Source of the DNA: Desulfosporosinus sp.
GTDB lineage: Bacteria; Bacillota; Desulfitobacteriia; Desulfitobacteriales; Desulfitobacteriaceae
Reading direction: 5' to 3'
Length of the DNA: 35,669 bases
NCBI GenBank assembly: GCA_031292095.1
Contig: JARLHU010000178.1
Coordinates: forward strand, 1 to 35,669
The notes under the pieces were generated by a model. That model did no database searches, was not told the origin of the DNA, and saw nothing but the letters and a program-made list of their open reading frames with translations. Positions 2,484-6,442 of the stretch are shown here, piece by piece; position 1 is the stretch's first letter; each line of letters opens with the position of its first letter. The position numbers and the translations under genes are program-made.

Positions 2484-3106
2484 ATGAATAAAGAAAGCCA
2501 GGTGCTACGCTTGGGTGCCTGATTCCTATACTCTCTGCAATTGCTATTATAGTGCTTGCTACATTTATATTATCTGGGTGTAGTCCATCTGTTACCCAAG
2601 CAACTACTCAAGTCACAACTAGCTCTTCTACGCCACCGAGCTCACAGCAAATTGAATACTACTTTACCCGGGCGAAGCAGCGCCCAGAGCAAGCACTAGA
2701 AGCTCAAATCAACTCCGCGAAATCAACCCTCGATATAGCCATTTATAGCCTTACTAAAAAAGATATTGTAGATGCTATCATTTCAGCCAAAAAGCGCGGC
2801 GCAACTGTGCGTGTCATTACTGATCGCATAGAGGCCAAATCCAAATCCGAAGTGGCTCAATTACAATTACTGAAAAGTGCCAATATTCCTGTTCTGGAAA
2901 ATACCCATTCTGGATTGATGCATATGAAGGTTTCAATCATTGATAAGTCCGTGGTTACGACCGGATCTTATAACTACACACAAAATGCTTCGACAGAAAA
3001 CGATGAAGTTTTAGTTGTGATCCATGATCCTGGGATTGCTTCGAAGTGGGAAGACGAATTTCAGCTAATGTGGAACGATACGAAGGATTATACTGCTATA
3101 AATTGA
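2484..3106 (+). CDS. PLD-like (HKD) nuclease/phosphodiesterase lipoprotein, frameshifted in the signal peptide
   Basis: Residues encoded by 2552-3106 form a single-HKD phospholipase D-like domain: LDIAIYSLTKKDIVDAIISA, RGATVRVITDRIEA, the catalytic HMKVSIID (HxKx4D) and GSYNYTQNAS. Single-motif members such as Nuc act as dimers on DNA or phospholipids. ILSGCSPS is a lipobox, so the protein is probably lipid-anchored outside the membrane. The frame from a proper site (AGGAG before ATG 2484) reads MNKESQVLRLGA and stops at 2520-2522. The main frame carries LGCLIPILSAIAIIVLATFI just before the lipobox, which completes a normal signal peptide. Adding one G to the TTGGGT run near 2511-2515 would join the two. 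Without it, only GTG 2552 could start the protein, leaving a signal peptide too short to work. Confidence 0.8.
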
Positions 3107-3186
3107 GGAGAAGGACTAAGCGCTCCCCCCTGATCTTTATTCTCGACTGTGCGACGTATAAAAAACTCCTACCATTTATTTATTCG

Positions 3187-3350
3187 CATAAAAAATCCCC
3201 TCACCAGGAGGGGTAGTGGAAGTAAAAGTAGGAGGATGAGAGTTTGGAAAGAAGGTCTGTGTTTCGACCTCCAAGGCAGAGTAACCATCTGTTGTTCTTT
3301 ATTATAGATTAAACTTATTACATTCACGTGACATTTGTATGGATATTATA
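3187..3350 (+). repeat. Hairpin-plus-box repeat, copy A
   Basis: Starts with a run of A and the hairpin CCCCTC-accag-GAGGGG (about 3197-3213), followed by GTAGGAGGATGAGAG and, about 100 bp further, an AT-rich box (ATTAAACTTATTACATTCACG). The same order recurs at 29216-29390 and 29430-29545. The hairpin could end transcription of the upstream lipoprotein gene, but the conserved downstream parts are not explained by a terminator. Confidence 0.5.
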
Positions 3351-3568
3351 TGTCATAAATACCGAAAAGCTCTTCAACCATTACGGCGAGAGGGGTTTGC
3401 TATACGAACTATGCTGTTTGCTGTACTGGATCCGCTATCGGTATAGGGTCGGGGGAGTAGCTACCGGGATCACTGGGCAATGACAGCAGCAGGACTGATC
3501 GTAAACATGTTATGGTTAAGCACAGTCAAAACATTTATTCAGCGATGGGCTAAACTCTCTAAAAATAA
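3351..3568 (+). other. Intergenic stretch with possible decayed coding remnant
   Basis: No intact gene. Two short open stretches on the plus strand look protein-like: HKYRKALQPLRREGFAIRTM followed by LFAVLDPLSV and a stop, then after a frame change HWAMTAAGLIVNMLWLSTVK followed by TFIQRWAKLSKNN and a stop at about 3570. They may be remains of one gene. I cannot name it. Confidence 0.2.
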
Positions 3569-4393
3569 TTAGCAGGGAATCAGACCACATTCCTCCAGAA
3601 TTGAAGAACCCTCCGGTCCAGTAAGAAGATCGACGAACGCTTGAGCTAGTTCTGGATATTGGCTATCTTTAGATAACCCAATGGCAAATTCTATGGGTTT
3701 ACCATGAATGATGACGTTTTTTCCTGGAATCTTACTTTCAACGGTTACAGTAGCCTGGTCATAAAAATCAGCATAAGCAGGATTAGAAAGGTTAATCTTC
3801 GTGGGTAGGACTATATAGGGAAGCCCTAATTGTTTAGCCTCTGAGGAATAAAGAAATGCATAATCAACTTTCCCTTTAAACAAAGCACTTGATAGGTCTA
3901 AAGATTTAGGGTAAGTAGTGTAAGGAATACAAGCGGCTTCCAAAGTTGAGTAGAGACCTGGCCTACTGTAATATATTTCAGCCAATTGCCAGACCATTAG
4001 TGTTCTATAGCCCCGAGGAACAAGGTGATGGTCCGAACGGGCAAAACTAACTTGCGGCTTAAGTAACATATCTACCCAGTTTTCTCGAGTAATCTCCTTG
4101 CTCCCCCTTGAAGAGCGATCATAGCCAATAACAATTTGATCAGCAGCAAAAACAAAGTAGTTTTCCACCAGATCGGGTACTAGCAGTTCCGCAAATAGCG
4201 CTTGGTCAGCTAGAGCAATGATGTCATATTTTTCTCCGGATAATAACCGTTTGGCACCCTCCCTTGAACCAATCCCTTCTATCTCGAATTTCAGACCTGA
4301 GTTTTGTTTATAAAAGTGTTCAAGACATTTTTCCATAACTTGCTGTAATGCAGCGGCATAAATTATTCTAAGCACCTTATTAGAACCTATCAT
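3569..4393 (-). CDS. Signal-less molybdate/tungstate-type solute-binding protein, probable cytosolic ligand sensor
   Basis: 274 residues with the fold and motif order of ModA/WtpA-type periplasmic binding proteins: LRIIYAAALQQVMEKCLEHF at the N-terminus, YDIIALADQALFAEL, VIGYDRSSRG, WVDMLLKPQVSFARSDHHLV, VDYAFLYSSEAKQLGLPYIV and LLTGPEGSSILEECG at the end. In the family this fold binds oxyanions for an ABC transporter. Here the N-terminus (MIGSNKVLRIIY) has no signal peptide or lipobox, and no permease or ATPase gene is nearby. Its ATG overlaps the stop of the PadR gene (ATGA), so the two are translationally coupled. I infer that it works in the cytoplasm, sensing an anion for PadR. The ligand is inferred from fold only. 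Decay of a former transporter component is the alternative. Confidence 0.75.
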   Translation of the reverse strand: MIGSNKVLRIIYAAALQQVMEKCLEHFYKQNSGLKFEIEGIGSREGAKRLLSGEKYDIIALADQALFAELLVPDLVENYFVFAADQIVIGYDRSSRGSKEITRENWVDMLLKPQVSFARSDHHLVPRGYRTLMVWQLAEIYYSRPGLYSTLEAACIPYTTYPKSLDLSSALFKGKVDYAFLYSSEAKQLGLPYIVLPTKINLSNPAYADFYDQATVTVESKIPGKNVIIHGKPIEFAIGLSKDSQYPELAQAFVDLLTGPEGSSILEECGLIPC

Positions 4394-4791
4394 GTAAAAT
4401 TCACCCCCTCTTCCCTCTCAGACAAAGATTCTTCAAACTGGAAATAGGCTTGTAAAAAATTCTCTAACTTTGCTTTTTGTTGAGCAATGTACTTTGCCCA
4501 TACCTTTAAAGACTCTTCTCCTTGAGTCGTTAATTTGTAAAGTCGCCTGCCTGGGCCTGACTCGCCGACTTCCCAATGGGATTCAATTAACCCATCCTTA
4601 TCCATACGCCTTAGATTTCGATAAACGGTTGCTGCATCTGCTTCTCCGCTCTTAAACTCAGCTTCATTTAGACGTTGAATTAATTCATACCCATGAGAAG
4701 GCTTTTGTCCTAACAAGAGAAGTAATTCGGCTTGAATAGAACGCTCAATCGGAATAGTTAATTCAAATTTACCTAACATCTCTTCATTCAT
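4390..4791 (-). CDS. PadR-family transcriptional regulator
   Basis: 133 residues from ATG 4791, which has a GAGGTGG ribosome binding site; a longer in-frame reading to 4929 exists but would include the operator-like palindrome. The winged-helix core is typical of PadR: SIQAELLLLLGQKPSHGYEL, IQRLNEAEF, ATVYRNLRRMDKDGLIESHW and GPGRRLYKLTTQGEESLKVW. A C-terminal helix rich in Glu and Gln (AKYIAQQKAKLENFLQAYFQ) is the dimerisation arm. It overlaps the binding-protein gene downstream by four bases. The pair probably acts as one sensor-regulator unit, controlling itself through the palindrome at 4872-4892. Its other targets are unknown. Confidence 0.88.
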   Translation of the reverse strand: MNEEMLGKFELTIPIERSIQAELLLLLGQKPSHGYELIQRLNEAEFKSGEADAATVYRNLRRMDKDGLIESHWEVGESGPGRRLYKLTTQGEESLKVWAKYIAQQKAKLENFLQAYFQFEESLSEREEGVNFT

Positions 4792-4871
4792 AAGTTCCAC
4801 CTCAATTACTGTCACTGTGCCTATAATATCAAGTGCATAGTATTCTACAGCTTTTAATAATATCCTTCTAC

Positions 4872-4892
4872 ATATTAGGTTCCACCTAATAT
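4872..4892. promoter_or_regulatory. Perfect palindrome, probable operator of the PadR gene
   Basis: ATATTAGGT-tcc-ACCTAATAT: nine-base arms with a three-base spacer and no mismatch, about 80 bp upstream of the PadR start codon. PadR proteins usually repress their own genes through such dyads. No second copy was noticed elsewhere in the window. Confidence 0.6.
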
Positions 4893-5037
4893 ATTTCTTA
4901 CTTCTGCGCATCTCAATTTCTAACGTCATATTGCTTTTGCGTGATTAAAAACCAGTTTTCCTGCTGACTCATAAGTGGATGTAATGAGAGAGTATGCTGA
5001 ACGAAGTGAGAACGCAATCAAAGATTATATTTATGCC

Positions 5038-5988
5038 CTAAGCAAATATCCAGTTAAACAAATACCCTACAAAAATAATCGCCACCGTCATAATTCCAAC
5101 AAAAATACCGAGCAGTTTTGGCTTTAAAACTTTGCGCAAAATAATCATTTCCGGCAAACTTAAGGCCGTAACTGCCATCATGAAGGCAAGAACCGTACCT
5201 AAAGCCATCCCTTTTTCCATCAGCACATGAACAATGGGAATGATCCCAGCTGCATTGGAATAGAGAGGTACTCCGATGATGACCGCCAGAGGAACGGCCA
5301 ATAGGTTATCCTTTCCTGCATATTTGACCAGGAAATCGGCCGGTGCATAGCCATGCATTGCACCACCGATGGCTATCCCGATAATGACATACAACCAGAC
5401 CTTTTTTAGAATGTCCACAACGTATTCCCAGGCATACTCTATTCTTTCCTTCCAAGTTAAGGAAGCCAATTCAATTTCGCCCATTTTTATATTGTAAACA
5501 TACTCCTCCACCAGATGTTCTAGTTTAAGTTTTCCAATCACCAGTCCTCCGACCAGAGCTACAGTAAGTCCAGTCGCAATGTAGATCGCTGCAATCTGCC
5601 AACCAAACATACCCCAGAGCATAATCAAGGCCACCTCGTTTACCATCGGTGAAGAGATGAGAAATGAAAATGTAACTCCCAGGGGCACCCCGGATTCCAC
5701 AAAACCGATAAAGACTGGCACTGCGGAACAGGAACAAAACGGGGTCACTATTCCCAACAGAGCTGCCAAAATATTTCCGATAAATTCTCGTTTATGGCTT
5801 AAAATCTTTTTTGTGCGTTCTGGCGGAAAAAAACTGCGGATCAGTGAGACCAAAAAGATAATAGTGGCCAACATTAGAAAAATCTTGATAGTATCGTAAA
5901 TAAAGAAATCAACAGCAGCACCTAAATGGCTGTTCGGCAAAAGACCAAACAACGTGTACGCTACATAATCAGCAAACGATTGGAGCAT
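5038..5988 (-). CDS. ArsP-type permease (PF03773 family)
   Basis: Polytopic membrane protein of 316 residues with about eight to ten hydrophobic segments. Family signatures are TPFCSCSAVPVFIGFVESGV, the following FLISSPMVNEVAL, and near the C-terminus VIIGVPLYSNAAGIIPIVHV and AVTALSLPEMIILRKVLKPK. The CSCS cysteines are a hallmark of this family, which includes organoarsenical exporters and permeases of unknown substrate. The start is set at ATG 5988 because AAAGGA lies nine bases ahead; ATG 5997 would be too close to it, and an upstream extension to 6042 has no support. The gene lies 82 bp downstream of the ArsR regulator on the same strand, so both probably form one metal- or metalloid-responsive operon. 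Confidence 0.88.
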   Translation of the reverse strand: MLQSFADYVAYTLFGLLPNSHLGAAVDFFIYDTIKIFLMLATIIFLVSLIRSFFPPERTKKILSHKREFIGNILAALLGIVTPFCSCSAVPVFIGFVESGVPLGVTFSFLISSPMVNEVALIMLWGMFGWQIAAIYIATGLTVALVGGLVIGKLKLEHLVEEYVYNIKMGEIELASLTWKERIEYAWEYVVDILKKVWLYVIIGIAIGGAMHGYAPADFLVKYAGKDNLLAVPLAVIIGVPLYSNAAGIIPIVHVLMEKGMALGTVLAFMMAVTALSLPEMIILRKVLKPKLLGIFVGIMTVAIIFVGYLFNWIFA

Positions 5989-6070
5989 ATTAATCATTCC
6001 TTTCAAACCTTCTATCCTCTTATCGCCAGTTCCTCTTCTCAACCACCAACAATTACCCCTTAATAATTCT

Positions 6071-6442
6071 TCAGATTTCCTCCTCGCAAATACTTGCTTG
6101 CATACTTAGGATTTCACAGAGATTGGGGTTTTCTCTTAAAGGAGAAAGTTTAATTTGTTGACTATCATTAGAAGATAAAGTCGTAAGTATTTGTTGCGCA
6201 ATATTTACTCCTGATTCATCCAGACGATAAAAAACCAGCTTTCCTTGTTTAATGCTTTTCACTAGATTAGCTTGTTTTAAAATTTTCAGATGATGAGATA
6301 TAGCCGGTTGGGAAAGATCAATTTTATTAAAAATTTCGCAACCGCACATCTCTTGGTCTCCTAACAACCTCAAAATATTTAAGCGGTGCACATCACCTAA
6401 GGCCTTAAATAATTCTGAATATTTTTCCATCTCCATCTCCAT
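6071..6442 (-). CDS. ArsR-family metalloregulatory repressor
   Basis: 123 residues with the ArsR winged helix: LFKALGDVHRLNILRLLGDQ, then EMCGCEIFNKIDLSQPAISH and HLKILKQANLVKSIKQGKLV followed by FYRL. The Cys pair in MCGCEIF sits at the start of helix alpha-3 where ArsR/SmtB proteins often bind metalloids, and two more cysteines (LCEIL, SICEEE) lie near the C-terminus. It heads the operon with the ArsP-type permease and is likely a repressor released by its metal(loid). The repetitive start MEMEMEK leaves three possible ATG codons and none has a clear ribosome binding site. Confidence 0.88.
   Translation of the reverse strand: MEMEMEKYSELFKALGDVHRLNILRLLGDQEMCGCEIFNKIDLSQPAISHHLKILKQANLVKSIKQGKLVFYRLDESGVNIAQQILTTLSSNDSQQIKLSPLRENPNLCEILSMQASICEEEI

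Follow-up and report, generated by a model that had tools for sequence, protein, structure and literature searches.

Among described regulators, the nearest design to the gene pair reported here is TaoR, which, in the account of Rajeev et al. (2019) given in PMC11980592, joins an HTH_17 domain to a periplasmic-binding-protein-like domain and controls molybdenum and tungsten genes; TaoR-like proteins, by the same account, also carry a TOBE domain. A looser parallel is the split ModE of Desulfovibrio, whose DNA-binding and molybdate-binding parts lie on separate proteins (PMC545781), with a ModE-type HTH and MOP/TOBE domains in place of the PadR protein and periplasmic-binding fold that we describe. 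The two members of our pair also have individual counterparts. WtpA, the binding protein of the WtpABC tungstate/molybdate importers, is of the same sequence family as one of them; PadR, LmrR and LftR share with the other the PF03551 family and a winged helix with a long C-terminal helix, and the operator predicted for it resembles ATGT-N8-ACAT, but the PadR protein considered here has an obligate, co-translated binding-protein partner. As far as that account describes it, TaoR is a single polypeptide, whereas the pair described here consists of two polypeptides, PadR and an SBP_bac_11/WtpA-type protein, with TSUP, ChrA or MOT1 permease genes linked to it. Both systems combine a cytosolic periplasmic-binding-type domain with a DNA-binding domain, and by analogy we regard the pair as a split counterpart of TaoR-type regulators. 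In the open-access literature, a scope outside which most subscription journals fall, we found no PadR protein with a binding-protein partner, and nothing relevant on PadR in combination with molybdate-binding or solute-binding proteins.

The gene pair in the window

The window, by which we mean the entire 35,669-nucleotide stretch of Desulfosporosinus DNA that was analysed, carries on its reverse strand a gene for a predicted PadR-family repressor of 133 residues (padR, 4390 to 4791), followed by a gene for a cytosolic WtpA-like binding protein of 274 residues (pbp, 3569 to 4393). The padR stop and the pbp start overlap on that strand as ATGA (4390 to 4393), which indicates translational coupling. 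We place the padR start at the ATG at 4791, behind the ribosome-binding site GAGGTGG (4797 to 4803); a longer reading frame starting at 4929 was rejected, since relatives begin at the equivalent of 4791 behind GAGGTG. A preliminary description of this DNA had proposed a two-protein anion sensor from the overlap, the missing signal peptide and the lack of neighbouring ABC genes, and the sequence bears out each of these: only 11 residues, with no hydrophobic stretch, precede the mature-type motif of the binding protein, and no ABC permease or ATPase gene adjoins the pair in the window.

The PadR protein matches PF03551 at 1.8e-18, with 66.7 bits against a gathering score of 27. Its predicted structure (pLDDT 83.9) has the winged helix and a C-terminal helix of the dimerisation type, and its best PDB matches are LmrR and other PadR proteins. 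The binding protein matches PF13531 (SBP_bac_11) at 1.2e-34 and is of the WtpA type, which replaces the PF12727 assignment made previously. It matches the WtpA models PRK04168 (1.3e-57) and TIGR03730 (2e-51), both below their curated cut-offs (174.7 against 242.75 for TIGR03730 and 195.2 against 355 for NF003196). Its closest relative is tungstate/molybdate-binding WtpA. The top PDB matches are the WtpA structures 3k6u, 3cfx and 3cij, which the predicted structure also places first, with low confidence; because that model is of modest quality (pLDDT 68.8), our arguments about the ligand pocket are drawn from sequence instead. Nearly all secreted WtpAs have 44 to 99 residues before the mature-type motif, with a hydrophobic core or a lipobox, and the window protein has neither export signal nor adjacent WtpB and WtpC genes. 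Searches against Pfam and NCBIfam gave no match to ModE HTH or TOBE/Mop domains in the pair.

Conservation of the pair and its ligand pocket

From a profile search with the binding protein across 398 genomes of the phylum, we observed a clean gap in E-values: the members below 1e-100 are signal-less, and above 1e-84 most are longer proteins of the WtpA type. Most secreted WtpAs, unlike the cytosolic members, neighbour permease and ATPase genes. The cytosolic protein is carried by 28 of 30 Desulfosporosinus genomes, the window's among them, and within the genus falls into subfamily A (72 to 88% identical to the window protein) and subfamily B (47 to 49%). The earlier description had called for a survey of PadR genes followed by signal-less ModA-like genes, and the pairing proved invariant. 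PadR lies directly upstream of the signal-less binding protein in all 38 loci that could be judged from their flanking sequence, 28 of them in Desulfosporosinus and 10 outside the genus, from five further families of Firmicutes (all 10 signal-less members of the E < 1e-100 group there). At every locus examined the two parts are separate reading frames, in most relatives coupled by overlaps of 1 to 11 nt or by very short gaps, with about 50 nt between them in L138 and L139. The coupling of PadR and binding protein is far above chance. Their evolutionary distances correlate across the 38 loci with r 0.97 (Mantel test, 0 of 2000 permutations), a value to which shared genome ancestry contributes, and within subfamily A alone with r 0.78.

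Visualized as a phylogenetic tree, the cytosolic binding proteins of the six families form a single clade (support 100/98) with the secreted WtpAs outside it. The preliminary description had named orthologues with a signal peptide and an adjacent transporter as evidence against its proposal; members of the cytosolic clade have neither signal peptides nor ABC genes. Other arrangements also occur. A distant, signal-less binding protein of 261 residues (L147:7628-8413) has no adjoining PadR or ABC genes; the genes beside it are for a universal stress protein and for amino-acid biosynthesis. In G029, a 35% identical WtpA-like protein (L063:8116-9102, reverse strand), the start of which may lack a signal peptide, is encoded amid ABC-type genes. 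Another PadR gene (L145:2365-2832, reverse strand), distinct from those of the pair and unaccompanied by a cytosolic binding protein, is divergent to a ChrA gene (2892 to 4148, forward strand), close to a true WtpABC operon.

In P. furiosus WtpA, tungstate is held by Asp160 and Glu218 (PMC4139814; PMC10221389). Alignment to 3cg1 equates these with Val125 and Ser164 of the window protein, which thus lacks both carboxylate ligands. The serine is invariant in the cytosolic clade; since some of the secreted WtpAs of Firmicutes have it too, we do not take the change of Glu218 as proof of an altered ligand. The aspartate is retained throughout the clade except in the window clade (the window protein, L044 and L045), and the HAGSL motif of WtpA is HAGAL in the clade. 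These departures from WtpA make molybdate or tungstate specificity uncertain, and the pattern of pocket residues across the clade makes a tetrahedrally bound oxyanion the likely ligand. In the window protein, L044 and L045, HAGAL has further become YAAAL, and HLDPCGYR has become HLVPRGYR (HSVPRGYR in L044).

Clear WtpA homology, together with the loss of the metal-ligand aspartate in the window clade, could mean that the protein is the remnant of an ABC importer, a decaying WtpA that has shed its signal peptide and its partner genes. Against this stand a dN/dS of 0.11 to 0.12 between the window gene and those of L044 and L045, indicative of purifying selection, and the existence of one conserved cytosolic clade across six families, and we give such decay hardly any weight. 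Pocket changes under continuing purifying selection point to a possible change of ligand in these three proteins.

Permease partners and the predicted operator

Operons of subfamily A read padR-pbp-chrA, and in some of them the gene of a MOT1-type molybdate transporter stands between pbp and chrA; those of subfamily B and of several other families have a TSUP (TauE) gene adjoining padR-pbp and sometimes a small HMA-like protein gene as well. Pfam searches on representatives gave Chromate_transp (PF02417), MFS_MOT1 (PF16983), TauE (PF01925) and the HMA-like PF00403. TSUP and MOT1-type proteins are candidate sulfate and molybdate transporters in sulfate reducers (PMC5840216). None of the padR-pbp operons examined contains ABC genes, and in some genomes the pair has no permease gene beside it. 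Other neighbours recur locally. Six subfamily A loci (L046, L047, L052, L053, L056 and L058) have a gene for a thioredoxin-reductase-like FAD protein of about 300 residues divergently upstream of padR. At L142:6399-6821 (reverse strand) a second PadR gene is divergent to an HMA-padR-pbp operon, with operator-like sites on both sides. In the window, an ArsP_1-type permease gene (5038 to 6042), itself preceded by an ArsR-family regulator gene (6071 to 6442), shares the strand of padR and lies about 250 bp upstream of it; some B-type loci (L064, L068, L069 and L070) have relatives of this permease nearby.

The frequent proximity of three permease families raises the question of whether the binding protein assists transport by attaching to the cytoplasmic side of TSUP, ChrA or MOT1, with PadR being only the regulator of the operon. 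We think this very improbable, given that the permease varies in family and may be absent or unlinked, as in the window and its genome (G000), and PadR never is.

Upstream of padR, the preliminary description had pointed to a perfect 9-3-9 palindrome (4872 to 4892, no strand assigned). The palindrome is present exactly as described, directly upstream of the predicted -35 position, and is one of 11 perfect inverted repeats in the window with arms of at least 9 and spacers of at most 8, but neither its conservation nor its role as an operator could be upheld. No relative has it before padR, and a search of the genome gave no second good copy: the best other match has two mismatches, a reversed-pattern control also finds matches, and genomic copies do not exceed that control. 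We therefore rejected the palindrome as operator. The preliminary description had itself listed a lack of conservation among the outcomes that would count against its proposal; the failure overturns the palindrome only.

A different site takes its place. In subfamily A, a 20-bp site, CTATRTGCAYNNTGAYARTA, is conserved with the -10 element just upstream and the ribosome-binding site just downstream; it is an imperfect inverted repeat of the form TATRTGCA-N3-TGMAYA and resembles the known PadR operator type, ATGT and ACAT with 8 nt between them (PMC5050560). The window copy, TTATAGGCACAGTGACAGTA (4807 to 4826, reverse strand), is likely to be the operator of PadR, judging from its conservation in 16 A-type promoters and its recurrence before TSUP and unlinked chrA genes. 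With the promoters aligned on the operator, the predicted -10 element is TAGAAT (4842 to 4847, reverse strand), 15 nt upstream of the site, and the -35 position is occupied by a weak TAGAAG (4865 to 4870, reverse strand), where several relatives have TTGACG.

A matrix built from the subfamily A sites was scanned over both strands of 682 kb, and all 26 matches scoring above 14 are at promoters of the module; 17 of these are A-type sites, almost all of which had served to build the matrix, and the remaining nine had no part in it. B-type operons begin with TSUP, and in 8 of 11 cases the match lies 39 to 109 bp upstream of that gene and not upstream of padR. The site takes a more symmetrical shape, of which ATATATGCACGGTGCACTTA is an example, at two further B loci and at 7 of 10 other-family loci, the remaining three (L137, L139 and L190) having no clear site. 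The layout of -10 element and operator is alike in A, B and orphan permease promoters; because the A and B promoters are alike beyond the operator, their sites are not fully independent. Promoters of the other families differ and are the stronger argument. The strict pattern TRTGCA-N3-TGCAYA has one or no exact match in each other-family genome, only that of G372 being at a module, and pattern searches revealed no convincing regulon member beyond module-type loci. A recurrent operator-like site, GATATGCACCGTGACA, and another at G000:C75:2784 both lie within response-regulator coding sequence and were set aside as coincidence.

Some operators now stand before permease genes that have lost the pair. 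In the window's genome, chrA is unlinked to padR-pbp (G000:C15:34529-35788), with an operator scoring 30.4 about 130 bp upstream; between the two lies a remnant of the C-terminus of a binding protein, from which we conclude that a padR-pbp copy was lost there. G029:C758 has an operator, a truncated padR and chrA, and G002:C55 an operator, broken padR and pbp genes and MOT1. As G000, G029 and G002 each retain an intact pair elsewhere, we predict that their orphan chrA and MOT1 genes are regulated in trans.

Some PadR proteins, LmrR for one, can themselves bind small ligands. PadR might thus be a local regulator with an effector of its own, and the binding protein might store or deliver molybdate or tungstate inside the cell, similar to Mop. 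Cytosolic anion storage proteins, Mop and Tub, are known (PMC11980592), and a MOT1-type molybdate transporter is among the operon partners. The invariant partner, however, is PadR and not a set of cofactor-synthesis genes, the two genes are translationally coupled and co-vary, and the decayed loci lose or break both padR and pbp while keeping permease and operator. Storage or delivery is accordingly unlikely in our view, although it deserves more consideration than the other alternatives.

A proposed two-protein oxyanion sensor

The original idea of a two-protein anion sensor gains from the co-occurrence, coupling and co-variation of the two proteins, the cytosolic clade and the common operator at permease operons, and loses its palindrome and its PF12727 assignment. 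Our analysis suggests that the padR-pbp pair is a two-protein oxyanion sensor of a kind not described until now, in which ligand sensing is the best explanation for the obligate, co-translated partner, and we consider it probable that PadR and the cytosolic binding protein together act as a sensor-repressor of oxyanion permease genes. Repression, contact between the two proteins, the ligand and the sign of the response are what we infer from the arrangement. PadR would bind the inverted repeat between the -10 element and the ribosome-binding site and block its own operon as well as linked or unlinked TauE/TSUP, ChrA and MOT1 genes, including, in trans, the chrA gene on another contig of the window's genome; the operator sits just downstream of the -10 element, so that repression by roadblock is expected. 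The co-translated WtpA-like protein would remain in the cytosol, bind an oxyanion there, with a molybdate-like one favoured by the MOT1 partner, and alter PadR activity by direct contact, replacing the ligand domain of one-component regulators. Most likely the ligand-bound protein would be a co-repressor that turns uptake off when the anion is plentiful; the opposite sign is possible where the permease exports.

We also lean, by a modest degree, towards the broader hypothesis that this is a widespread class of two-protein sensors, in which a PadR without any ligand of its own reads oxyanions through a dissociable, ABC-derived cytosolic protein, with one operator serving three permease families. 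If the pair works as proposed, it would show that the binding protein of an importer can be turned into a stand-alone sensor subunit in the cytosol, the one-component design being divided between two proteins. Little is known about how sulfate-reducing and related Firmicutes control their oxyanion transport, and the pair would provide a likely regulator and operator for their ChrA, MOT1 and TSUP permeases.
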